In this document: piece by piece, positions 5,329-22,857 of the stretch
How the letters are laid out: every line of letters begins with the position of its first letter
Numbering within the stretch: position 1 is the first letter of the stretch
From: Haliclona indistincta
Lineage: Eukaryota; Porifera; Demospongiae; Haplosclerida; Chalinidae
Direction of reading: 5' to 3'
Length of the DNA stretch: 64,000 bases
Assembly: GCA_964017065.1 (NCBI GenBank)
Contig: OZ024788.1
Location: forward strand, 6,874,875 to 6,938,874
Notes under the pieces: generated by a model
Databases searched by the model: none
What the model saw: only the letters and a program-made list of their open reading frames with translations
What the model was told of the DNA's origin: nothing
Program-made: the position numbers and the translations under genes

Positions 5329-8214
5329 CCCTATCTCTCAACACACCATCACACTATCATAATATCACACTCACCCAAGTCTTTCCTATCTGCAGTAGGG
5401 AACTTCTAGTCACTCCGGGAAGAATGATACCAGTCAATGGAGGTGTGGCTATCTCTGGTTCTAAAAATAGCAACAAAATAATCATAAGAATTAATTTTTC
5501 CAAAAAGCACACTAACCTCCTTGTTCGTTGATCCAGTGAACAAATATATTCATAGTCCCTACTTCAGTAATCTTTGTGAAAAATTAAGCATTGATTTGTC
5601 ACGTGTAGTGCTAATCACTGTAAATTTTCAAACCTGTTGATCGTCACCATACAACCAGAGCACTTGGTTGCAGCCTTTAGACTCAGCGTACTGCTGAACT
5701 CGAATCGTGGGTCCATAGTTTCTACGGAGAAAGAGGTGATTTCTTTTTCATAATTCATGCACATGTCTCGTCTCACTTAGTTTCTCTCACCTCTCTCTCC
5801 CTCCTCCCCCATCTCTCTCTCTCTCCCTCTCTCTCTCTCTCCTTTCATCTTACCCTCCCATCTTTGAATCTCCTGAGCCTCCTACCCATGCACGCACAAA
5901 CTCTGAACTAGCATAAAGTGAGACTGGATTGAATGTGCCAGTTGCAAAGTACGGTCCAACAGGACATGTTATACAGTATAGACGAGCTTTTTTGCTACGA
6001 GAAACGCCAAGAAACGGCTAGAAGAGAGAAAATCATGAAATACAATAAAAATTTAAATAATCAGTGTACGTATAAAATTATGAGACAAACAGTGTTCTGT
6101 ATTAGTTTCTTTTGATAAGTACAAGCAGATTATGGTTCAAATCTTGAGATGGTATCAAATATTGTGCGTGTCACATGACTACAGTGAGCGCGACCGTGCA
6201 TGCAGACCAAATACAATGAATGGAATGAGGCATTATTGTTGAAGTGATTCATGAATGCAGAAAATTTTGTGAATGAATTTTTTTGCATTTTTCGTGGGTG
6301 CTGTCAAAAAGCACAAAAATATCAAAATTTTGACATCTTGACAAAAACGCGAACATTTTGCATGACAAAAATTTCTATATTAATTTTGACATTATTTGGA
6401 GAAAATTATTAGGGCTCCTGCTCTCATAACAAAACAATACCTCAAATCATTTAGAAATGATATTTCACACAAAATAGGAATACTAGGCCATACTCACGTC
6501 AGTACCAATCAGTGTTGGTCTAATGTACAATGAACAGTCCTTCTCTTTCGGTACCCAGTCTCGATCAACTCTCACTAAATCCTTGATACACTCCAGGAAT
6601 GCCTCTCCATCAAAATTCTATAAATAATAACAAAAATATGCAGAATGCAAGAAGTTAGTAACATTGCATCATCAACTCAAGTCAGTGTATTGTACATGAG
6701 TACCATACAACAATGTACTTTATTGGTTATGTAAAATTCTATGATATATTATTAGCTAAAAGTATGCAACCTCAATGTAAGGATATAGTAGCATTGCATC
6801 ACCATCAATAATAACAAGATTGCATCATTGCCAGATAATGTGATAAGCAACATAATATTCTATTATAAACTACACCATGAGCTGTCATCAAATTCGCAGA
6901 CATACATGTAGAAAAAGAAAAAATAACATGTCTCAGTGAGAGATTAGAAACATCATCAGCGATGGTAAAATTGCTAAGATCAGACAGTGCAATATTGACA
7001 AACAGGATAAAGCATCTATGTGTGTGGGTAACTATGATCTATATGAGTGGGGGATTGCTCACTGGTAGACTAGCCACTTCAGCTGATCTGTTTAAGCGCT
7101 TCATGTTCTCCATCGGACGAAACAGTCGTATTTTTCCGTCCACACAGTGATACGCCTTCATGCCTTCAAAACACTGAGAGAGAAAATGCAAGAAAATGAT
7201 AGAAGTGAAAAATAGGTGGAACTACGAAAATTCATACAAAAGTTCATACAATGCCTGTGTTTCACAGCAGATTTCACTCATTGCACATGAGGTGTAGCTC
7301 TATCACAGAGTATCGGATTTCTAGTATTATTAGCAATCACTAATTTTACTGTTTTTATCATGTGAGGTTATAAATGCTAAATTTAGGTAACGCTAAAATT
7401 TAGCCTTAATGAGATTCATTGTACATAGCTGTGGTTTCGCAGTATAAATGAGCATGAATCTCCTTAAATAACAGCCAATTACTACAATTAGTAATCGCAA
7501 AACGCTAAATCAAGTGGTCGCTAATAATACAAATTTTAAGGTATGAGGTAACCCAAGTTCTGTACACAATGGAAACAGTTGCATAAACATTGACATCAGC
7601 AGCCACCTGTCTAATTATGCACTACTATGAAAGCACTGTTGCGTACCTCAACTCCGTAGTGAAGTGCACTCAGTCCGGGCGAGAGAGAGAAATTCTCAAA
7701 TGGACCGATCTTTGGAACATCCCATCCATCGTCGAGCGACCAGTCGACTGTGAGCATGTGATCTGAAAAGCTCTTTCCAAACACTAGCTTGCTTGATTCA
7801 GGTTTGGGCTGAGGAGACTGCGTGAGTGTCACCTCAATACCCTTGTGCTGTAGAAACAAGATTTTACGCAGTGGTTAATTTTTACATCTTTTAAGATGTG
7901 GTAGACAATACACAAAGTGTGAAAATGCACAAGACTACGTACTGTATTTCATTGTTCAAAACCTGTTGTTATAATATTCATGCATAACAAGTGTTATGTT
8001 ACTTCTGCTGCAGTAAATTTTAGTGTTGCTGTGATGTTTGTCTCCCGCTCACCTTCAGTGATGAAACTTGACGCGTTACCTGCCAGAGCAACTTTGAGGA
8101 CTGCAAATGTAAGAAAGACACGCCCACTCGAATCACCTTTCGCACGCGGGTTTATATTGGCGCGCTCACCTTTTTCGCATGCAGCTTTCTCCAGGCGTAC
8201 CTTACAGCTGCCAT
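4542..8214 (-). CDS. BCAT2: Branched-chain amino acid aminotransferase, mitochondrial-type
   Basis: Thirteen exons: 8214-8170, 8100-8053, 7847-7647, 7173-7063, 6617-6498, 6017-5854, 5721-5634, 5571-5517, 5460-5375, 5230-5162, 5111-5040, 4961-4887, 4586-4542. They total 1179 nt (392 aa), the length of human BCAT2. The enzyme is a PLP fold-type IV aminotransferase for Leu, Ile and Val. Visible motifs are [48 protein letters not shown], the PLP lysine in [30 protein letters not shown], and the redox CxxC in GTACVVCPV. It ends [13 protein letters not shown]. The first two exons encode about 31 residues rich in Arg/Lys with no acidic residue ([15 protein letters not shown] start), consistent with a mitochondrial presequence. 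The frame is intact throughout. It is divergently paired with the YOD1-like gene. The mitochondrial assignment is inference. Confidence 0.95.
5260..5326. repeat. (CA)n microsatellite in BCAT intron 9
   Basis: About 66 bp of uninterrupted CA dinucleotides in the intron between BCAT exons ending at 5230 and starting at 5375. Confidence 0.95.
7312..7550. mobile_element. Probable small inverted-repeat (MITE-like) insertion in BCAT intron 3
   Basis: GTATTATTAGCAATCACT near 7325 is mirrored by the reverse complement of AGTGGTCGCTAATAATAC near 7515-7535. AT-rich sequence with repeated GCTAAAT motifs lies between. The ends cannot be fixed and no target duplication is clear. The rest of this intron shows nothing else. 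Confidence 0.35.
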
Positions 8215-10993: not shown

Positions 10994-12235
10994 TCAAACT
11001 TGACAATGAATGGTCCTTTCAATGCTCGACAGAGGTATATCAACCTGGTGTAAGTTGGGAAACGGATCAGTTATGTTATTTAAATATCGTTCCAATGAAG
11101 GAGAATAGTCGGTAAAGCTTATTTGTGTTATATTAGAATGAAGAAAAACAAGCAGGGATTGGACTTCTACTTGCTGAGGAGAGTAGGGCATTAAATGATC
11201 TACGTCTAGCTTTGTTCCATACCTGCGTAAGTAAGCAGCAGCTAAAAGGTGATGTTTGTGTCCAGATTCCAAACCACACATGGTATAGTCACTCAGAAAC
11301 CCAATCCAGGTTCTGTTTTGCAACATCTCAACAACTGATTCAGCACTAGGTAGTAAATTGTTTGAAGAATATAAACCACAAGCAAAGTAGAAATAGTGTC
11401 GATGATCAGTAATATGAGATTCTTGATGGCCAAACAATAATGCATGTTTGCTCATTTCTTTATATACGACAGTATAGAAAGCTGCCCAAAATTCTTGAAT
11501 AACTTTGTGTGGGAAAGAAAATTTATAGGCGACTGTTCCAGGTTCATCAGCAGGTTGAAAAGACAGTAATCCAAAATTTTCACCACTGGGTAAGTAGGAG
11601 CGAAGCTCCGCTGCAGAGTATTTTATGGTGTCTTCACTGTCATGAGTCATTAAGCTGTCATAAGCTAACCTAGAGACATTAACAATTGCATCAGCAAGGT
11701 CTGAGTTACACAAGCGAAGAGAAGTGAGATCAGTTAATTCAACATTGGAACAGCCTACTATATCGTTTCTCATTATCTCTCGTTCAAAAAATATTGAAAA
11801 TGACTTAATAAATGCCTCAGTTAAACTCGATGGAAACTTTTTGTCTTTCACACTCTCTACAAACATGGTAAGGTGAAGAGGAGAGGTACACAGATGAAAA
11901 ACAGCAGGATGTTTTGTTAAATACTCGAGGAAATGTTTTGCATGCCTCTTGTCAGGAATGTTTTTGGACACAAACTCTTCAATTCCGCTTTTGTCGAAGC
12001 CAACGAGTTCAAATTCCTGATAAAAGCTAGTTCCACTTTTTTCATAGAGTGCTTCAGGTCTAGATAACAATATAACTGTGGCAGTAATAAGTTCTTCACG
12101 ATTAATGATCTTATAAATGTAGTTGCTGGGATCATTGTATGCTGGAGGGTATTCATCTAGACCATCAAATATAATGCAAAGGCTTTTAGCATTTCTAGGA
12201 TTGGACAACAAAAATTCGGATTCTTTGTCTATAAC
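10994..12235 (-). pseudogene. 3' part of the transposon-split CARD-RING-NACHT gene (Walker B to stop)
   Basis: Downstream half of the last exon of the minus-strand gene starting at 38364. It opens with VIDKESEFLLSNPRN and continues SLCIIFDGLDEYPP, the NACHT Walker B with the D-G-x-D-E signature. Then come LLSRPEAL (sensor 1-like Arg), the helical and winged-helix-like part (SPLHLTMFVESV...AYDSL, FSFPHKVIQEFWAAFY) and about 150 further residues. No leucine-rich repeats are present before the stop at 10994-10996. NACHT NTPases power oligomerisation of NLR-type innate sensors. No ATG lies near its start, because the exon begins at the 9-bp target duplication (12227-12235) of the Mutator-like element. 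Translation of this half alone is not expected. Confidence 0.9.
12227..12235. repeat. Left target-site duplication of the Mutator-like element
   Basis: GTCTATAAC, identical to 19338-19346 in direct orientation. Within the NACHT frame (minus strand) it encodes V-I-D. Nine bases is the hallmark target duplication size of Mutator-like elements. Confidence 0.9.
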
Positions 12236-12286
12236 GGGATAGGATAAAACTACACTGTTACAAACATGTTGCCTTCTTTGAAGGGA

Positions 12287-12541
12287 TAAAAGAGTGTAGG
12301 GGGTACACTGTTCTTTTCCTTCTTGTTATTAAGGGAAAAAAGAGTGTGGGGTACACTGTTTGTCTCCATCATAATGATGGAAGAAAAGAGTGTGGGGTAC
12401 ACTGTTTGTCTCCATCTTTGATGGAAGAAAAGAGTGTGGGGTACACTGTTTGTCTCCATCTTTGATGGAAGTAAAGAGTGTGGGGTACACTGTTTGTCTC
12501 CATCATAATGATGGAAGAAAGGAGTGTGGGGTACACTGTTT
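12287..12541. repeat. Left subterminal repeat array of the MULE
   Basis: Six copies of AGAGTGTGGGGTACACTGTT separated by GTCTCCATC...GATGGAAG spacers, 43-50 bp period. Several spacers are themselves palindromic (CCATCATAATGATGG). It is inverted relative to the array at 18944-19286; short open frames across it are artefacts. Confidence 0.93.
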
Positions 12542-12782
12542 GCTGCTGTGCATGTTTCTCTCGCATATGTTTCTCACAGTAACTGCTGTTTAGCAAATTT
12601 AAGGTGTGGATTACTTGAATGGAATTGTGACTCTGGACTAATCTCTGAGGCACGGTGTTAAATTCTTCAGCCTTTGGTTACAAGGTGCTAAATCCTTCAG
12701 CCTTTGGTTATAAGGGCCAAAAGCTGCATTTTAGCATGGATAGCAGCATTTTAGTCAAGATGGCAGCAGTATACTAGAGAGA

Positions 12783-13273
12783 ATGATGGATGAAGGCTCA
12801 AAGAAAATGGACATACTAGATGAAGATGGAAGGATGGATGACAGCAGTATACTAGATGAGGGAAGGATGGATAGCAGCAGCATACTAGATGAGAGAAGGA
12901 TAGATAGCAGCAGCATACTAGATGAAGATGGAATGATGGATAGCAGCATGCTAGATGAAGATGGAATGATGGATAGCAGCAGCATACTACATGAGAGAAT
13001 ACTGAATGAAGACTCAGAGAGATTGATGGATAGCAGCAAATTACTTGATTGTAAAGGTAAGCATTAAAAGGACAATTGAATAATAATTATTATGAAGCTT
13101 GTTCTCTTTAGAAATGTGTGAGAACTGTGGTAGTGAAGCAGACATCTTCTGCAAGCAGTGTGACTTTCATTACTGTACTATGTGTTCTACTGCAAGACAT
13201 AAACATCCTGCAAGAAAAACACATATTCTCACAGTGCTACGCCAAAGAGATTCACTTCCTCTGTCTCATGAAG
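12783..13273 (+). other. N-terminal part: acidic repeat and B-box-like zinc finger
   Basis: Exon 1 encodes about 91 residues made largely of a MDSSSILDE-type repeat (six or more units, visible in the DNA as an imperfect tandem repeat from about 12725). Exon 2 encodes MCENCGSEADIFCKQC, HYCTMC and then ARHKHPARKTH. The Cys/His spacing fits a B-box-type zinc-binding fold, probably for protein interaction. B-box versus another treble-clef finger is a judgement from spacing only. Confidence 0.65.
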
Positions 13274-16200
13274 GTAAGATTACTGGGCTTCAGTTGTGTA
13301 TGTATGATACTATTGCTGTATCGGTGTGATAGAGCCAAGGGGTACTACGTAGAATTTAATGTAGACTGATGATAAAAAATAAAACTGACTTCACTATACA
13401 TTGTACACCGCTCTTTCTCTACAATAATATGTGTCCCATGAAATAAGCATTTGACATCAATGTGATTCTAATTTCCATAATCACAAATTTTTGTGAACTG
13501 TTTTCAATTCACGAATAACATACATTTTAATGTGTAAAGTATTGGCTAGTTAACAGCCAGTACAGTAACTCTCCTGATGTAACCTACTATGTGTGTTGAG
13601 CTTGAAATAATCATTATCCTTCTGATTTGTAGCTGATTTTGACCTCACAATGACTGGATTGCTACTGAAGAAATTCAATCTAACCACCTTCAAAGATTGG
13701 CAGTTAAGGGCAATCAAGGCTCTCGTTGGTGGACAAGATGCTCTTGTAGTACAGCCTACTGGTTCCGGAAAAAGCCTGTGCTATCAGTTTCCAGCAATAT
13801 GGTTGAAGAAGACAACAGTCGTTTTGACTCCAACTATCAGCTTAATGGATGATCAATCAAGTTCATTGTCTTCTAAAGGAATCAAAGCAACGTTTTTGGG
13901 CACAGCACAGCAAGACACGCAGATACCTCACAAATTGCTCGCAGGTGAATATGAGATCGTATTTGTTACTCCAGAGAGTTTCTTTGCTGACAATGGGCAA
14001 CCTAGAGAGCTTTTTAAACAGCTAAACTGCAAAAATAGAATTGGAGTGATAGCCCTTGACGAAGCTCATTTGTTTTCTTCCTGGATTTCATTTCGGTAAG
14101 TTCTATTTATGGTGTCACACTTTTGCATTATAATTGTGTATAATTCATTATTACAGGCCAAAGTATGCACATGTTGCTGAGCTTCATTCTCATTTCACTG
14201 GAATTCCGATCTGTTTTGACTGCTACTGCTACACCTCCTGTACAAGCCAAGCTTCTTAGTCTATTGATCAACCCAGTTAGAGAAATTGCATCAGTAAACA
14301 AGCCAAATGTTGCCTATATTGTGAAGCAACTGCGACCATTGCCTAAAGGTACTAACCATACACTTGCTAGCTCAGCGTTACTGTATAAATGCACACAATA
14401 ATTTATTTCATGGGCTTTTGCATATACTCTTACACACAAAACTATTCTTGTTTAGTTTAGTTAATCCACAAAACATACCCACAAAAATTCTGCATCTAGA
14501 GCTATTTTATGTGTACACAGGTTCTGTAGTTGATGACGACTACGAGTGCAAATTTACACACCTTGCTCATCAAGTGCTACCACACATTCAGAAAAGAAGG
14601 GCAATTGTCTATCTTGATGCTGCTAAGGATGTACCTAGGCTTGCCATTGCGCTTTGTCGTTCTGGCCTAAAATCTTGTGCCTACCATGGGAAGAACATGT
14701 CGACACATGATAAGTTGCGAGCACTTGAGAATTGGAAGAATGGGGAAGTTGAAGTAATGGTTAGCACTTCCGCCTTTGGTCTGGGTATTGATCGTGGAGA
14801 TGTAGAAGCAGTTGTAAAAATTGGTGTTCCAAAATCTATAGAGGATATGGTACAGATGTTTGGTCGAGGTGGAAGAGATGGACGAAATGCTCAAGGTATG
14901 ATCGAACTTAATCTCATAATTAATTAATTGAGCTGTGTATACATAAATTTTAGGAGTATTGTTGTACAGAGAAGATGATTTACAGATGGCTTGCTATTGG
15001 TGCAAGAGCAGTCAAGACCAATGTATTTTGACTCAATTTCAAGACAGCTGGAAGTAAGATTATTCTAGTGATAGCTAGTTATAACTGTTGACATGTACTA
15101 TGCAATAAGTGATTAGTCTGTTAATAGCGTATTAACATTCCGATTTTGTGTACACTTCCAGGTTTGTTTATGCTCATCTAAATGGCAAGTGCAGGAGACA
15201 TGTGATTTTGGAATACTTTGGAGAAGATCCGAGCACAGCATTAGCACCAACAAGCCAGTGCTGTGATATTTGCACCACAAGCCCTCAAGACTTGGTTGAT
15301 GTCCAAAAGCAGATGGAGATAATTGTTAGAGCTATCTTCGAGCTGTGTGCAATCAATGCTACCGGAGAGAAGAAGGTATACATGCATGCTAGAGGTGAAA
15401 GTTAATGCATAAGTCAATTTCTTCTTACAGATTGCTGAGTGGATACGAGGTTCACAGTCAGATCGTATGAAAAAGCTAAAATTGTCTGATTCTCAGACGT
15501 ATGGCTCTGGCATGTTTCTTCAACTATCACTTGATACCTGGAGGCAACTGATTAAGATAGCATGGCTGAATGGCCTTCTCACCCGGACAATGAGTTTGGG
15601 AGTTGCTATAGGAAAACACTACAACATCGCATTTAACACATATCAAGTACGTACCGCAAATACTCACATACTAGTGCAACATACATAGTAGTAATTATAA
15701 CTGATAATTTATGTACATGTACCCTAACTGCATGTCTCTCCTGCTTGTTACATTGTAATCAATTTAGTACTTGTAATTCATACACAATGACAGAGATTGA
15801 GCTACTTTAACAATACATTATTACGGAAACACATGTAAAACTTTAACTGATTGCAGCACATGTAAGGTAGACATGTCAAACAAATAATTCATTTTGCTTT
15901 GTTATTGTTCTTTATAGGTGTCGTCAGAAGGTCAAAACTTCCTTACCACTCCTACTAGTGTTTTGTCACCTAGTCTTGAACTTGGCGCAAGACAATCTGC
16001 TGACCTCTCTTCTGATCTCTCTACTGATTCCTCCACAAAAACAAGAGTTAGTTCCACTTCGACAAAACGAAAATCCAAAGGGACCCAAGCATTACCTATC
16101 ATCCGCACTCTATTGTCACAAAGTGAAAACTGGTTTGAAATCACATCTCCTGATGACTACCAATACCCTGGAGTATTTCAACAAGACCATCCACGAAGAG

Positions 16201-18880
16201 TAGCATTTTGTTCAGATGTAACGTCACTTCCATTTTATGATGCATCCAACGAACACTTCCTTTTCGATGACATCCAATTCGGAAAAGGACACATTCGTGG
16301 AATTCGCACAACTAGCATGAATGTAAATGGGACAGAAGAAGATGTTTGTTACAAGATAGCGCCATGTAAAGGAGTGAAAGTTTGCGGTAATGCTGACTGT
16401 TCTTATGTCACATCGACCAGAGAGAGCAAAGCCTGTCCAAATCATCCTACCATCAACCTCGAACTAACTAAAGATTGTCTAGTGGATTTTTACTATATTT
16501 GGCCGAAGGATTGTGAAGATAAAAGAAGATGGATAGGTGGTCTACTAAGATGCGGCGATATGAGAGATAACAATCTTCATTCGCACCCTCTCAACCCACC
16601 TGCCAAGATTCCAGTGAAGGTAGAGGCCGACATAAGAAGGGCACTAGTTGAAAATCCACGGCTAAAAACCTCTGACATAATGATTGGTATGTACATTAAT
16701 AATAATTGTATCATGCACACTATAAGTATTGTCTTTAACAGGAAAAGGTTTGGCATACATGCCCAGCGCAGCATCGTTGGCAGCAACACACAAAGGCAAA
16801 ATGAAAAACCTAAGACTGTCAACTCTGCGTGACAGTCATGTGGATCCAAAATCTTGCATACTGAAGCTTGAAAAAAGCTTGCTAGAGTATGACAGCACTA
16901 CTAAAGAGAGCATCGGATTACAGGGTAAATTTAGCGTAGTGGTGCTAGTAACATGTTGCCTTAATGTATGTGCATACAGGGGGACATTTTGCCACATACC
17001 AAGAACTTGGTCATCCTTATGTGCAAGATTTTAGTGTTGGTAGAGAGTTTACCTGGGTCCTATGCATGAGCCCTCTTATGGCTAAAGTTCTTGGAAACTC
17101 TGACTTCATTGAAGTGGATGCTACCTTCAAAACTTCTATCGAGCTTGGTAACACAATCAATGTAGTTACATTTGACTATGAGACACTGCAATGTAAGCTA
17201 CAATTAAGCTGACAAAAAGAAACTTATATGTATAATTTTGTTTATACACAGGGATGGTTGTTGCCAGAGTGTGGTTAAACCAACTAGATGCGGCAGCTTA
17301 CACCACATGCTTTACAGTGTTGTTTCGCAAAGTTAAAGAATTATGCCCTACCTTTGTGATAGGAAAGTCTCTAGTAGGAATTGTAGCAGATTGGTCAGAT
17401 ACGCAGATCAAGGGACTAGAAGGTGCCATTGGGGAGGAGACTGTTGCCAATGTGATGAAAGGCTGTCAAGTTAGTTATTAAGTCTGTGTACCAAACATGA
17501 GTTATGATTTGTCTATTTTAAACAAGGTTCACTTCATGAGATCAGTCAAAAGAGTAGGGGAACGGCTCAAGGAATGTTCAGTAGAGTCACGGCAAGTGTT
17601 TGTCAGCCTTGGTTATGCAATATTGGAAGCCAAAACCAAAGAAGAAGTAGACATTTTATTCAAGGCTATGTGTGGAGAAACCGGACTGGAAAGTGCAATT
17701 CACTTAGTGTCAAAAAAACATGAAAAATACGCTACTCAACACAACCCAATGTGGTGGACTACAAGTGCTAAGTGGGTTGAATGGTGGACAAGACCTAAAC
17801 ATTTGAGTGAGTTAGTTTGTTTTATACCAATAATTATTAATTGTCTTACAGAAATGCTGTCGGCTACTTGCGCGGACATGAGTGAGGCTACTTTCCAACA
17901 AATTCCAAATTCAACCAATGCAGTTGAATCGTACAATCGACTGTGCAAAGGCAGTTCACCAGACCCTCTCGAAGTGGCTATGATGACTACTTACAAGCTA
18001 GACATGGCAGCTGCTATGCAGCACTTGGCTGTGCTTAGTGGAATGACAGTAACCTATGAAAGACAAACTCCTGAAGCAAGAAGTGTTCGCTCCAGTGCAC
18101 AAAGCAAAGCCAGGAATAAGAGGAGGTTTACCAAAGCTGTGGATGATGCACAAGGTCCACCTGACAAGATTAGAGATTTTAGTGAGTCCTGTTAACAAGT
18201 TAGAATGCACAAACTAATTGTTTATTCATGTAGCCGACGACAGTGCCACTCCTACACGTAAGCGAAGAAAGACAAAGCCAGAAGCTATGACGAAGACTAC
18301 AGATTTGACAGTGCAATTTGAAATTACGGAGAATGATCTTGAAGCAATAAGAAGAGGAGAAATGCTAAATGATTGCCATATCAATTCGGCTTCAGCGTTA
18401 ATCAAGGAGGCTTTTCCCAAAATCAAAGGTCTACAGAACACTCTAAATGAACAAAGAAAAAATGGTTTTAAGCCTGCTGGTGATGGAAGCATCCAGATCT
18501 TATATTGCGGAGGCGACACAAAGCACTGGGTAACGACATGCTCACTAAACAACACAGTACTCCTGTATGACAGTCTTCCACAAGGTTCAGTACCAGTAGA
18601 ACTGCAAAGACAAATCAAAACCATCTATGGAGAAACTACCAAGGAGGTAGTTTTACCCTTGGTTCAGAAACAAACGAACAAAGTCGATTGTGGATGCTAT
18701 GCCATAGCCTGGGCACTTCATTTGGCCCTTGGAGAGAAACCTGAGAACATGCGGCTAGAAACCAAGTCTATTCGACAACACTTAGAGCAAATTTTGGTCC
18801 AAAAGGAGCTGACACCATTCCCAAACACTGTCAAGAACAGTCGCCGCACACACAACACTACCATTCCACTAACTGTATAA
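12783..18880 (+). CDS. B-box/RecQ helicase/MULE transposase/Ulp1 fusion gene of the MULE (15 exons, one frameshift)
   Basis: Exons: 12783-13056, 13112-13273, 13633-14095, 14157-14348, 14521-14895, 14954-15053, 15162-15375, 15431-15646, 15918-16686, 16742-16924, 16980-17192, 17252-17469, 17527-17806, 17852-18181, 18234-18880. Every junction is GT-AG and phase-compatible. There is no terminator, promoter gap or in-phase stop between the helicase, transposase and protease parts, so they read as one product of about 1545 residues. The total (4636 nt) leaves a remainder of one, which matches the single-nucleotide frameshift I see in exon 4 (about 14210-14215). The start at 12783 is the first ATG of the open Asp/Ser-rich exon and is uncertain. 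Alternative promoters making separate proteins cannot be excluded without transcripts. Confidence 0.82.
13633..15646 (+). other. RecQ-type DNA helicase portion of the MULE gene
   Basis: RecQ order is complete: motif 0 FKDWQLRAIKALV, Walker A VVQPTGSGKSLCYQFPA, motif Ia LTPTISLMDDQ, motif II ALDEAHLFSSW followed by FRPKYAHVAEL, motif III LTATATP, motif V VSTSAFGLGIDRGDVEAVVK and motif VI MFGRGGRDGRN. The RecQ zinc-binding module follows (YWCKSSQDQC, then QCCDIC). RecQ enzymes unwind 3'-5' at recombination intermediates. Between TGIP and LTATAT the frame shifts by one base (about 14210-14215); dropping one T there reconnects the motifs. This copy's helicase is therefore probably non-functional unless the base is a sequencing error. 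Confidence 0.88.
15918..18181 (+). other. MULE DDE transposase portion
   Basis: A Ser-rich linker leads into a possible zinc-binding region (CKGVKVCGNADCSY...CPNH). The MULE catalytic core follows: first Asp in FIEVDATFKTS, second Asp in GIVADWSDTQIKGL, the C-x2-H helix GCQ/VHFMRSVKRV, and the catalytic Glu in the classic STNAVESYNRL context. WWTTSAKWVEWWTRP precedes the last motif. All three acidic residues and the C/H pair are present. It would cut and rejoin element ends in the nucleus. Confidence 0.88.
18234..18880 (+). other. Ulp1/SENP-like C48 cysteine protease portion
   Basis: After a basic RKRRK stretch (possible nuclear signal), the last exon gives a Ulp1-like core: His in TKHWVTTCSL, Asp in VLLYDSL, oxyanion Gln in LVQKQTNK, and nucleophile Cys in VDCGCYAIAWALHLALG. 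The size (about 215 aa with linker) suits a minimal C48 domain. Ulp1-like proteases accompany several eukaryotic transposon groups; here it is fused to the transposase C-terminus. Polyprotein self-cleavage or SUMO removal are both possible. Confidence 0.85.
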
Positions 18881-18943
18881 TTAATTAGATGAATAATGAA
18901 TCTTGATGATCTTAATTTCTTAAAACAATGTAGTGTAATAGAA

Positions 18944-19286
18944 AAACAGTGTACCCCACACTCTTTACTTCCATCAAAGATGGGGATAAACAGTGTACCC
19001 TGCACTCTTTTCTTCCATCAAAGATGGGGATAAACAGTGTACCCCGCACTCTTTTCTTCCATCAAAGATGGGGATAAACAGTGTACCCTACGCTCTTTTT
19101 TTCCATCATTATGATGGAGACAAACAGTGTACCCCGCACTCTTTTCTTCCATCAAAGATGGAGACAAACAGTGTACCCCACACTCTTTTCTTCCATCATT
19201 ATGATGGAGACAAACAGTGTACCCCACACTCTTTTTTCCCTTAATAACAAGAAGGAGAGCAACAGTGTACCCCCTACACTCTTTTA
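18944..19286. repeat. Right subterminal repeat array of the MULE
   Basis: Eight copies of AACAGTGTACCCCACACTCTT with TCCATCAAAGATGG or TCCATCATTATGATGGA spacers, 43-50 bp period. It mirrors the left array; its outermost unit (GTACCCCCTACACTCTTTTA) matches the outermost left unit exactly in inverse. Confidence 0.93.
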
Positions 19287-19337
19287 CTCCATCATTGACG
19301 GAAAATCAGCCAAAACAGTGCAATGTTGTACGGAACC

Positions 19338-19346
19338 GTCTATAAC
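19338..19346. repeat. Right target-site duplication of the Mutator-like element
   Basis: GTCTATAAC, direct copy of 12227-12235. On the minus strand it again reads V-I-D in the NACHT frame. Confidence 0.9.
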
Positions 19347-20191
19347 AGTATTGTTGTTTATGTTAAGAATGTCCACTAAGCTTAAGTTTTGTCCACTAGG
19401 TCGCTCCGTTTTTAAATCCCTCAGTGTAACTCGTAGCAAGAGAGGGCATTTTGTGATTTCTGAGCTCGCCTTTTTGTTAAAGGACCATTCTTTAATGAGG
19501 TGATTAACGAAAGTAGTTTTGCCAATACCTGATTTGCCTTGAATCACAATACGTTGGCCAAGACCTGTATATTCAAAAAACTCATCAAACTGAACTTCAC
19601 TAGGATGAAGAACTTGAGTAGCATCTACTCCAAACTGTAATTCATAAAAGACAGGAGGAACAAATTTCACATTATGCCACGGTTCACGATTTCTGTAATG
19701 GTTTTTTATGATAGCTGCATACCTAAGAAGAGGTTGCGGGATTTGTGGGAAACATTGGCACTGGGATGCATCATGAAGATAGAAATGCAAAAAGGAAACG
19801 AAGAGAATAGCAATTACAACAAAGGCACTGAACATTACATTGGTCATCAACCGATTGCTACTGCATTTATTGTAACGTAGTTGAAATTTCTGAAGCCGAT
19901 TAAGTTTCAAGATCTGGTGATTCTGAAGGTTCCTTACCTCACCCACCCACTCACAGTGATCCTTGCCATGGTATGGGCAGTGAACTTTAACTCCACTGAC
20001 TTTTTGGGAAAAATATCTATCGAAGTGAGCAGTATGGAGGTCAGGCAGAGAATCACGACAAATGCGACAGATATGGTGTCCACATTCGAGCTGAAATGGG
20101 TCAGTGAGTAGATCTTGACAAACAGGACAAAAATAGTCTCTGTCGGGTTGTTCAACAAATTCAAAAATTCTTGGTTTATGTTGACGCAACT
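19338..20191 (-). pseudogene. 5' part of the split last exon: degenerate RING, TM segment, NACHT Walker A
   Basis: The acceptor TTATTGCAG places the exon start at 20191, in phase with the donor at 34986. It encodes CPVCQDLLTDPFQLECGHH.CRIC of a RING finger, but the final C-x2-C pair present in the paralog (CPTC) is missing through an in-frame deletion. The TRAF-type finger is reduced to CPYHGKDHCEWVGEV. A hydrophobic stretch MFSAFVVIAILFVSFLHFYL (about residues 456-480 of the joined protein) is a likely single transmembrane helix. The P-loop IQGKSGIGKTTFVNHLI and LLLRVTLRDL follow. The frame then enters the MULE at V-I-D and stops soon after. Confidence 0.9.
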
Positions 20192-20980
20192 CTGCAATAA
20201 TAACAACCTGTTAATGCAATACTAAATGTATAGAGTTACAGTTACTTGTTTGAAATATGCAATTAAAAGTGCTAAAATATGCAATTAAGGTAGGACCGGT
20301 GTGAAAATTCATCTCTTGGGTTTTTGTTGGTTTTAGAACATATGTTCATTTTAGACTGATAGTAAAATTCCAGCATACAGTTTACAGTAGAGAATTCTTA
20401 TTGGTTCTAACTTCTGGAGATATACCAGGGGCATAACTAGAAATTGGGAAGCGAGGAGGCGCGTGCGATTTTGAAAATTAGCTAATTAATATTCATTAGA
20501 ATGCATCATTTTAACTGTGCATAGTATAGTACATTATTGTGCGTTCGTGCAACTTCACAGTAGTCTGGTGGCGAGCAAGCCAGACCGAGAGACAGCGGTG
20601 TCAGGCAAGACAGCTGTAACCAGGCAAGGTATAGACGTTCATAAACATTTTGGTTGGGGAAAAGCGAGGAGGCAAACGCTTCCTCTGCCTCACGGTAGTT
20701 TCACTTATAATGATATTCACACAACAATGATTATATTCATGAGTGCTATTTGCAACACACAAGTACAGCTAATTTAGGCTTGTGCCGATTATGCTAGCAT
20801 AAATTTTAGCATTTTTTAGGCACGATAAAGCATTGAGCATAATAAAATTATTGCTAGCACAATAGGGCTGTTGCAATTAATTAATATGAAATGATGTCAA
20901 TTTACTTCCAGGTTTGACGTCTAAATTGACGTCAATGACGTCAATTTAGCAGTTGTATTTTCGCCGCCTAAAAGCTCGAA

Positions 20981-22857
20981 ATGGCGCAGTCCGCGGAGCA
21001 ATCGCATCTGTCTGATGTGTTTTATAAGCTCAATGCAAAGCACAAAGCCCGGTATCATGAAAAATATCAATGATAAGAAATGAAGATCCCTATTCGCTGA
21101 AAAAGTCTGACTTATCCAAGGATGCATCTCTACTGTCCTCTCTAAGGTACGCGGTGTACAGTGAGTAGTTCAGTTGGCGCCCAGATTAAGTTAATAACCG
21201 CAGATCTTTCTGTCTATTTCAGCTACCCAGATATCGTGGTGTATTTGCTTTATACCACCAGTTTTGCGACACTAGAGGAGGTGAAAAATTACAAAAGCCC
21301 GCAGAGCTACAAGTACTTCACGTGTGGTTGGATGCTGGAATCTGTGTGGAAGAGATATCCTGAGGAAGAGATCATGCTAGTCATGTGGAAGGTCAGGCAC
21401 AGCTATGCAGCAAACAAGTCACCTCTTCGACCATGGGTACTGATCAATTGCAGTGGAGAAATTCTTGTGGCACACTGCACCTGCATGGCTGGACTCGCTG
21501 AAACCTGCTCCCATGTTGAAGCTCTACTCCACTGGGTGGAAGCTGCTGTCGGGATAAGTTCGAACATTTCCTATACGTACAAAGAGAATGCTTGGATGCC
21601 AGCTCAAACAGAACACATCCCAAGTTTAGAGCTCACTGAGATCAATTTTACACGCCTAGACTCAGCAGCCAATGTTGCAGTACTAGTACAGTGTCAACTA
21701 CAGCTACATCCTTTTGTCATCTGTCGCAGTCTGAAATTGAAAATTTCTTTCAATCGATCTCTCTAGAGCAGCAAAACAAGTCAATAATTCTGTCACTCGT
21801 TCCACCTTACATTGACAGCTTTGCTTGCTCTAGTGATCATCTGCCTCCAGTGCTACAAAGCTTGTACAATCCTGTTTACTTGGTCTATGACTACTCTCAC
21901 CTAGTCGAATTAGCTGAGGAGCAATTCTCATCTGCAGATGTCACTCTTCTAATGGTCAATCATCTGGTTGAAGTTACATTACGCCAATCTAATTCAGCAA
22001 GTTGGTTTCGTTATCGAGCTGAGAGTTACCGCTTCTCGATTCAGGCAAGTCTTACACACAGATCCCCAAAAGTCACCTCTATCACTGCTGAAAAGCATTT
22101 GCTATCCAGAGGTGAACAGATTTAGCACAACAGCAACCAAATGGGGATGTAAACATGAAATCCAAGCATACAAAAAACAGTCGCTAAAATGTCAGTTTCT
22201 CCCACAGGCTTTCATATTCATCCAAAGCACCCATTTCTAGGTGCAACACCCGATGCTCTTGTAAACTGCAAATGCTATGGGTCAGGAACTGTGGAGGTCA
22301 AGTGCCCACTCTGTGCAGAACAGTCATCCTTTGAAGACGCAGATAACACTGGTTCTTTTTGTCTCGAAAAGCAGGCAGATGGCGTGTACTACCAAAAAAA
22401 AACACTCTTTTTTACTACCAGTGCCAGCTACAAATGTTTGTCACAGGATTCATGTATTGTGACTTTGTCGTATGGTCCAGTGATGAACTACACATTGAGC
22501 GTATCACAATTGACAAACAACTCATCCAGGTCGCCTTACCAGTTGCAGAAGGTTTTGTGAAACTGCGTTATTCCAGAGCTATTGGGAAAGTGGTACACCA
22601 GAACACAGCCTCCCCGTGATCTCACACCTTTGCAAACAGAAGAAGATAAAGGGAATTGGAGTACTTGTAAAGAGTGCAAAGGTGGTGAAATTGTTGCTTG
22701 CGACAACAAGTCTTGCTTGACAGTCTGGTTCCACCTTGAGTGTGTAGGACTCACTGCTGTGCCCCGGGGCAAATGGTATTGTCCTACATGTAAGTGTGCT
22801 AAGAAGAAAACTAGTACAAGTAGGATCTGCTGGCTGACTATGCACATGTGGTTGTGA
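20981..22857 (+). pseudogene. Decayed SWIM finger-YqaJ nuclease-PHD protein of transposon origin
   Basis: Fragments in all three frames line up as one gene: start MAQSAEQSHLSDVFYKLNAK at 20981, SWIM finger CTCMAGLAETCSHVEALL, a YqaJ-type (lambda exonuclease-like) core with FLGATPDALV and GTVEVKCPL, YQCQLQMFVTGFMYCDFVVW and ELHIERI, then a PHD finger CKECKGGEIVACDNKSC..WFHLEC ending WYCPTC. I count at least four frame changes (near 21060, 21700, 22000-22190 and 22400-22480). YqaJ genes of this layout are common in cnidarian and sponge genomes and accompany some DNA transposon families. It lies in the large intron 4 of the NACHT gene on the opposite strand. Confidence 0.8.

Follow-up and report, generated by a model that had tools for sequence, protein, structure and literature searches.

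A Mutator-like transposon of the sponge Haliclona indistincta with a RecQ helicase and a DDE transposase in one predicted polypeptide

Positions 12236 to 19337 of a 64,000-nucleotide (nt) stretch of the Haliclona indistincta genome (assembly GCA_964017065.1, contig OZ024788.1, positions 6,874,875 to 6,938,874; the window) form a real transposon unit with exact ends, and its lineage has recently been active. The element is very likely an autonomous cut-and-paste Mutator-like transposon, with a single 15-exon gene for one protein of about 1545 amino acids that carries a B-box, a RecQ helicase, a DDE transposase and a C48 (Ulp1-like) cysteine protease. An initial annotation of the window had placed the RecQ, transposase and C48 parts in one polypeptide. 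That proposal is supported at the level of sequence, because sister copies have an open frame, two divergent elements keep the parts in the same order, and uninterrupted open reading frames (ORFs) are found elsewhere.

The genome searched for copies comprised 144 Mb in 46 contigs (labelled C1, C4, C5, C8 and so on). Loci fetched from it have L-numbers (L011-L066), and related ORFs from public data have P-numbers. When the region was compared with the fetched copies by BLAST, homology stopped at or within a few bases of 12236 and 19337. The 9-bp target-site duplication GTCTATAAC lies on both flanks, with an exact match between 12227-12235 and 19338-19346, and the bounds given in the initial annotation stand. 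The left inverted-repeat region (12236-12542, plus strand) begins with the tip GGGATAGGATAAAAC and continues in 44-46 nt subrepeats, each itself palindromic. The right region (18940-19337, minus strand) has the tip GGTTCC in reverse complement and subrepeats like those on the left. These arrays of 44-46 nt units make up the long inverted ends, which include, for example, 192 nt with 94% complementarity.

A transposase exon was found at 11 places including the window, and nine of these, the window again included, have a match of 625 bases or more at 100% (rounded). The full-length copies, which are far beyond chance, number eight and are about 99% alike: the window copy, L012, L013, L014, L015, L016, L017 and L018. 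Over the 6.3 kb inside the inverted ends, variation is limited to 8 substituted sites and indels of 30, 2, 2 and 6 nt, a count that leaves out the insertions of L014. Near-identical copies show that this window family has spread recently. Exact 9-bp duplications flank seven of the eight full copies and both halves of a split ninth copy. The exception is L012, with unlike flanking 9-mers (GAAAGAAAT and GTCAGGCTA), perhaps as a result of recombination between copies.

The 15 exons join into a single frame of 1545 amino acids in L012, L013, L015 and L017 and of 1547 amino acids in L016 and L018. The frame is therefore open in six of the eight full copies, the others being the window copy and L014. 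All 14 introns are GT-AG, and the junctions 15646/15918 and 18181/18234 lie where the initial annotation put them. Its phase-compatible frame is right for the family but wrong for the window copy, where it missed a private 2-bp deletion after 14210, in exon 4. Read in the phases of intact copies (L012, L013 and L016), 11 of the 14 introns have stops in the continuing frame, and introns 9, 10 and 13 have none.

The first of the two divergent elements, L063 on C4, has 161-nt arms that are 99% complementary and a 9-bp duplication (GCACACAGC). It contains the B-box, RecQ, transposase and C48 in window-family order at 35-53% amino acid identity. A 148-amino-acid ORF passes its RecQ-transposase join, and the tblastn match continues there in the same frame with no intron. 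The second, L065 on C1, has near-perfect inverted ends and a 9-bp duplication (AACAAAGAC), with the B-box, RecQ and transposase again in window-family order at 27-37% amino acid identity. One 339-amino-acid ORF of L065 extends from the RQC region far into the transposase with no intron at the join, and a second place on C1 has 389 of the 971 bases of this exon. The motif GATAAAACTACACT occurs at the left end both in the window family and in L063, and GGGTTGGTAG is shared by one L063 end and both L065 ends. The own-genome transposase search that lists such relatives scored the best 52 of 156 candidates and gives a lower bound.

Further relatives come from public data. A profile of the three families found three proteins (P0001, P0002 and P0003) among 7,997 scored candidates, and a second profile found 30 more among 8,000 scored. 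P0001 (1083 amino acids, E 2.0e-132) is a single ORF aligned with window-family residues 151-1181, and P0002 (1158 amino acids, E 2.3e-118) is a single ORF aligned with residues 94-1137. Both have the RecQ motor and the transposase up to its CxxH in one ORF, with the helicase domains confirmed by Pfam. Nine of the 33 related ORFs cross the RecQ-transposase join (start at or before residue 650, end at or after 720), seven of these beginning at or before residue 609, while 12 of the 33 include the start of the transposase part. One of the related ORFs, P0006, is exon 9 of the window family itself. These relatives were reached only with the three-family profile: a search with the single transposase-region protein sequence had no hit among 7,060 candidates at E up to 1e-3. 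The 87 pattern matches in viral contigs included no relative.

Relatives in which the RecQ is missing or reversed would count against the fusion, and none was seen among the fetched elements that keep their 5′ half. The fetched relatives with no RecQ match (L064, L044, L019 and L021) are truncated pieces; L064, which is related to L063, gave no such match over its 7 kb. The continuous frame across RecQ and transposase in the six intact copies, together with the intron-less join in L063, L065 and nine of the 33 ORFs, suggests that the join is stable among relatives and not an accident of one copy.

Several results weigh against the single-protein reading. The 2-bp deletion in exon 4 breaks the frame of the window copy, so that exons 5-15 no longer follow in the frame of exons 1-4 and give 82 stops. 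Unless the assembly is in error at this deletion, the protein cannot be made from this copy; the two bases are present in the seven other full copies and in the left half-copy L020. L063 is degenerate: it has stops, and one of them follows the join, ahead of the conserved transposase block. The zinc region of the L065 RecQ seems to hold one in-frame TAG, and Pfam gives no RQC or other domain in the 339-amino-acid ORF of L065. Because L063 has stops and L065 apparently this TAG, intact copies in this genome are limited to the window family. Finally, we infer the splicing of the 15-exon gene from genomic sequence and not from transcripts.

The identity of the RecQ part is certain by sequence. 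The best matches of the first 666 residues in the Protein Data Bank (PDB) are RecQ and BLM (E 2.2e-56 to a solved RecQ), and the protein has a DEAH motor with RecQ motifs, a zinc-binding domain and an RQC domain. On the plus strand, like all exons of the gene, exon 3 (13633-14095) encodes the Walker A motif (GSGKS) and DEAH box of the motor (Pfam DEAD at residues 168-328, E 7.3e-24; RecQ and BLM chains), and exon 4 (14157-14348), the site of the window-copy deletion, encodes motif III (TAT). Exon 5 (14521-14895) holds the second motor domain with GRGGRDG (Pfam Helicase_C at 384-485, E 1.9e-15), and exon 6 (14954-15053) the end of the motor. The zinc-binding domain lies in exon 7 (15162-15375; RecQ_Zn_bind at 518-561, E 5.2e-5, 24.3 bits against a cut-off of 25) and most of the RQC winged helix in exon 8 (15431-15646; Pfam RQC at 566-681, E 5.3e-6). 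Pfam found no HRDC domain in the window-family protein.

The transposase follows in exons 9 to 14. Exon 9 (15918-16686) contains the last RQC part, a linker and a Cys/His-rich N-terminal transposase domain, and exon 10 (16742-16924) continues the transposase. The first catalytic Asp (VDATF, residue 1030) is in exon 11 (16980-17192) and is conserved in all 15 aligned rows that reach the motif. The second (ADWSD, residue 1101) is in exon 12 (17252-17469) together with the start of the CxxH, which is completed in exon 13 (17527-17806) ahead of a WWTxPKHL block. The catalytic Glu (TNAVESYN, residue 1246) is in exon 14 (17852-18181). In the three rows of alignment A1, D436, D507, C532/H535 and E652 (alignment numbering) are invariant, with the CxxH between the second D and the E of the DDE core.

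The initial annotation called the element a Mutator-like element (MULE), and this assignment is partly supported. We regard the transposase as Mutator-like, and not as a proven Mutator member, because of the 9-bp duplication, the long inverted ends and the DDE plus CxxH signature. Long terminal inverted repeats are present in the window family, L063 and L065, and exact 9-bp duplications are found at 10 of the 11 insertions examined across these three families. Target duplications of about 9 bp are the norm for the Mutator superfamily, and those of hAT and P are 8 bp. A length of 9 bp fits Mutator best among the five superfamilies that have a C/DxxH motif; Kolobok differs in duplicating TTAA (PMC9587614). 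The spacing D-71-D-25-CxxH resembles that of three MULE domains of the same genome (63 and 21), and the Pfam model Transposase_mut matches two of 32 family members, with a best E of 0.031. Duplication length, end structure and motif order thus favor the MULE label.

The profile searches do not show Mutator membership. The Pfam MULE model PF10551 matches neither the spliced protein nor its relatives, and these elements are absent among 85 own-genome PF10551 matches at E up to 10 (exons read singly). An hhalign comparison with the three own-genome MULE domains scores 11.5, below at least 8 of 40 shuffles. With a deeper profile the score is 15.4, reached by 2 of 60 shuffles, and the alignment covers seven columns around a D-x-T-F/Y motif (DATF/DATY), so that it shows little beyond that motif. 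The transposase family profile has no match in the PDB at E up to 5. Nor is DDE plus CxxH exclusive to Mutator, since the C/DxxH motif is common to five superfamilies and so shared with hAT, P, Kolobok and Dada (PMC9587614). A transposase outside Mutator, belonging to one of those four or to a new CxxH DDE superfamily, is somewhat unlikely in view of the duplication length and motif spacing.

It is improbable that the unit comprises two or three head-to-tail genes (RecQ, transposase and protease) and that the single frame is an artifact of the gene model. Such an arrangement has a counterpart in other DNA transposons with separate RecQ genes; in Kolobok-1_CCri, for instance, the RecQ is on the complementary strand (PMC9587614). 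Intron 8 is also fairly long (271 nt), with nine stops in the continuing frame, and the joins were predicted from the DNA, not read from RNA. Yet intron 8 divides the Pfam RQC match (566-681), whose last part lies beyond the exon 8/9 join (residue 666), and an RQC match in P0003 (74-176) likewise spans the join, there at 159. Exon 9 is directly preceded by an in-frame TAG, and its first Met, at 16317, is codon 133 counted from 0, leaving none in the first 133 codons for a separate transposase to start from. The intron-less joins of L063, L065 and the nine ORFs argue in the same direction. The crossing of the join by the RQC domain is seen with the Pfam model; alignments to solved RecQ chains end at residues 640-648, short of the join, which weighs against the single-protein reading.

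Exon 1 (12783-13056) has the ATG start and a repetitive leader of the MDSSSILDE type (residues 1-92), and exon 2 (13112-13273) a B-box-like zinc finger at residues 94-129, for which the Pfam match to an ANCHR-like B-box (E 3.8e-4) is under the curated cut-off. Exon 15 (18234-18880), which ends in the stop codon, encodes the Ulp1/C48-like protease. Its Peptidase_C48 matches (E 0.019 and 0.0029) reach 15.2 and 17.9 bits against a Pfam cut-off of 20.7, which speaks against a secure assignment, and its similarity to SENP7 is weak (E 0.24). By eye, HW, YDSL, Q and DCG follow one another in the order of the His-Asp-Gln-Cys pattern of such proteases. No Ulp1/C48 was detected in L065; in its place the tail has a Tudor-like segment (6274-6450), whose best Pfam match (E 4.5e-4) is under the cut-off.

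The initial annotation suggested that the protease cuts the polyprotein, which would separate a mature helicase from a mature transposase. A C48-like domain does occur in both the window family and L063. P0002 begins, ahead of its B-box, with a ubiquitin-like leader (residues 1-72) that ends in LGLLGG, and this GG end together with an Ulp1-type protease makes a possible cut site. The PDB matches of the leader are to ubiquitin: a multi-ubiquitin chain gives E 3.6e-14 and single domains give about 0.02. Pfam, searched at E up to 1, reported no ubiquitin domain in P0002. In L065 the RecQ-transposase fusion is kept with no detectable Ulp1 and a Tudor-like end instead, and this makes cutting of the polyprotein quite unlikely.

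Codon positions were compared between the window family and L063. Differences at positions 1, 2 and 3 are 45, 34 and 61% for RecQ (469 codons), 45, 35 and 65% for the transposase (645 codons) and 51, 36 and 71% for C48 (93 codons). L065 gives the same order for RecQ and transposase, the third position diverging most. All three parts look to be under constraint, with the reservation that the comparison counts only stretches picked for protein similarity. A Pack-MULE style capture of a host RecQ fragment by one Mutator-like element, recent and with no role for the RecQ, would suit the tendency of such elements to take up host gene fragments (PMC6446971) and the plentiful RecQ-like sequences of this genome, but we rejected it as highly improbable and largely refuted, since three divergent families, with amino acid identities as low as about 30%, have the RecQ in one and the same position, as do ORFs from other DNA, the RecQ keeps its helicase motifs, and its third codon positions diverge most, as in the transposase.

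How might the single protein work? Transcription from the left end and splicing would yield one nuclear protein, which could bind the subrepeats of the ends through its Cys/His-rich DNA-binding region. The transposase would then excise the element and insert it with a 9-nt stagger. The fused RecQ would work on DNA at the ends. Its most likely task would be either to melt the palindromic arrays of repeats while cleavage takes place or to assist gap repair once the element has been cut out. RecQ enzymes unwind hairpin and palindrome structures. Since the ends are built of short palindromes, which such enzymes can unwind, a RecQ in the fusion may hold these ends open or aid in copying back the gap. 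Folded as single-stranded DNA, the left end (12290-12542) has a z of -9.46, and the left ends of L063 and L065 have -5.91 and -4.01; in each case none of 200 shuffles was as stable. These values cover left ends from RecQ-bearing families, which limits their weight for a role of the RecQ at the ends; that role is one that we infer. Instead of cutting the fusion protein, the protease may act on host proteins of repair or silencing by editing their SUMO or ubiquitin-like tags. An action on post-transposition repair via the ubiquitin/SUMO pathway has been suggested for Ulp1 and OTU domains in transposons (PMC2836005).

A broader and more tentative idea is that these elements form a separate lineage of DNA transposons, perhaps a superfamily, with the RecQ built into the transposase to open hairpin ends or to rewind and repair the gap, and with the outer modules exchanged. 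The B-box, the ubiquitin-like leader and the Ulp1 or Tudor-like tail might be swapped to manage host SUMO, ubiquitin and chromatin. We give this possibility somewhat less than an even chance.

Academ and AcademH belong to a different superfamily from the window element, and Academ makes 3-4 bp duplications and is not known to have a CxxH. Both RecQ in DNA transposons (KolobokH, Academ) and Ulp1 in Mutator elements of plants and animals are precedents for parts of the present arrangement. Academ resembles it as a DNA transposon with a helicase that is called RecQ (PMC3627910), and AcademH is cited as present in animals and fungi (PMC10799480). KolobokH, of the Kolobok superfamily in fungi, is like it in combining a DDE/CxxH transposase and a RecQ helicase in one DNA transposon. 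It differs in its TTAA 4-bp duplications, where those of the window family are 9 bp and not TTAA, in having the RecQ downstream of the transposase (upstream in the window family, L063 and L065), and in being reported only from fungi, with B-box and Ulp1 unmentioned in the accessible part of the report (PMC9587614).

Ulp1 beside a Mutator transposase is known from plants, as the initial annotation held, and from animals as well. Mutator elements of hydra, lancelet and plants combine it with long inverted ends (PMC2836005), and grapevine Mutator elements also have it (PMC2528002). The available portions of these two reports mention neither RecQ nor B-box, and the window-family transposase differs from Mutator in going unseen by the Pfam MULE model. 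Ginger1 has exchangeable C-terminal domains (Ulp1, OTU, PHD), comparable to the Ulp1 or Tudor-like ends here, but its transposase is Gypsy-integrase-like, and a helicase is unmentioned in the part of the source at hand (PMC2836005). BLM and other RecQ helicases share the motor, zinc and RQC domains with the window-family RecQ, which differs in being fused to a transposase and in the HRDC that Pfam did not find. A survey of Mutator elements across eukaryotes leaves helicase, Ulp1 and sponge unmentioned in its main text (PMC6446971). We found no report of a RecQ with a Mutator-like transposase among the matches listed and in open-licence full texts, Repbase excluded; the arrangement may have been described before.

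Cut-and-paste transposons usually depend on the host for unwinding and gap repair, and in animals the RecQ family guards genome stability. Here the RecQ and the transposase share one chain in families as divergent as about 30% identity, and near-identical intact copies exist. The element offers a testable transposase that carries its own motor, in which the contribution of the RecQ to end cleavage or to post-excision repair can be studied. As a second kind of DDE/CxxH transposon with a RecQ, beside KolobokH, it suggests that recruitment of this helicase has been repeated.

Other copies and RecQ-like sequences of the genome deserve mention. L014 carries two insertions, as placed by window coordinates: one of about 1.25 kb in RecQ exon 3 and one of about 0.25 kb in intron 9. 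Intron 13 (17807-17851) is 45 nt long, a multiple of three, with no stop in the frame of the intact copies, and may be retained in some messages with the frame unbroken. The halves of the split ninth copy, L020 on the left and L019 on the right, are exactly complementary, meet at 16065/16066 and lie 1.35 Mb apart on C4. We rejected a genuine rearrangement and read the split as probably a scaffolding error in the assembly, because a run of Ns precedes L019 and both halves have the 9-bp duplication AATTTCGAG. L011/L021 is a fragment with a 105-base match at 84%. Twelve loci were found via the element ends and checked: 11 have no coding match, several of them with just one end, and the remaining one, L044 (C8, near 1.44 Mb), has the 3′ part with the exon 3 and exon 9 matches both absent. 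The elements L055, L058, L061/L062 and L053, about 1.3-1.7 kb long, have related inverted ends and give no coding match; they are likely non-autonomous passengers. RecQ-like sequences gave at least 125 matches in the genome, where the best 120 of 334 candidates were scored. They include multi-copy families besides this element, for example at C5:2058795, C1:1445064 and C4:8518806, the repeated ones at about 36-44% amino acid identity. In L066, one copy from these families, the RecQ is followed by a host-gene-like ORF, with no recognisable transposase within 3.2 kb downstream.

The window copy interrupts a RING-NACHT (NLR-like) gene on the minus strand (window 10994-20210). When the flanks are joined with one duplication kept, the NACHT frame is open. 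Pfam finds the RING and the first part of the NACHT domain over the cut-off on one side, and the last part of the NACHT domain at 24.7 bits, just under the cut-off of 26.7, on the other. Farther along, the plus strand has ORFs at 21146-22857 in which a YqaJ-like recombinase domain is accompanied by a PHD finger; they are perhaps another mobile element or a captured gene.

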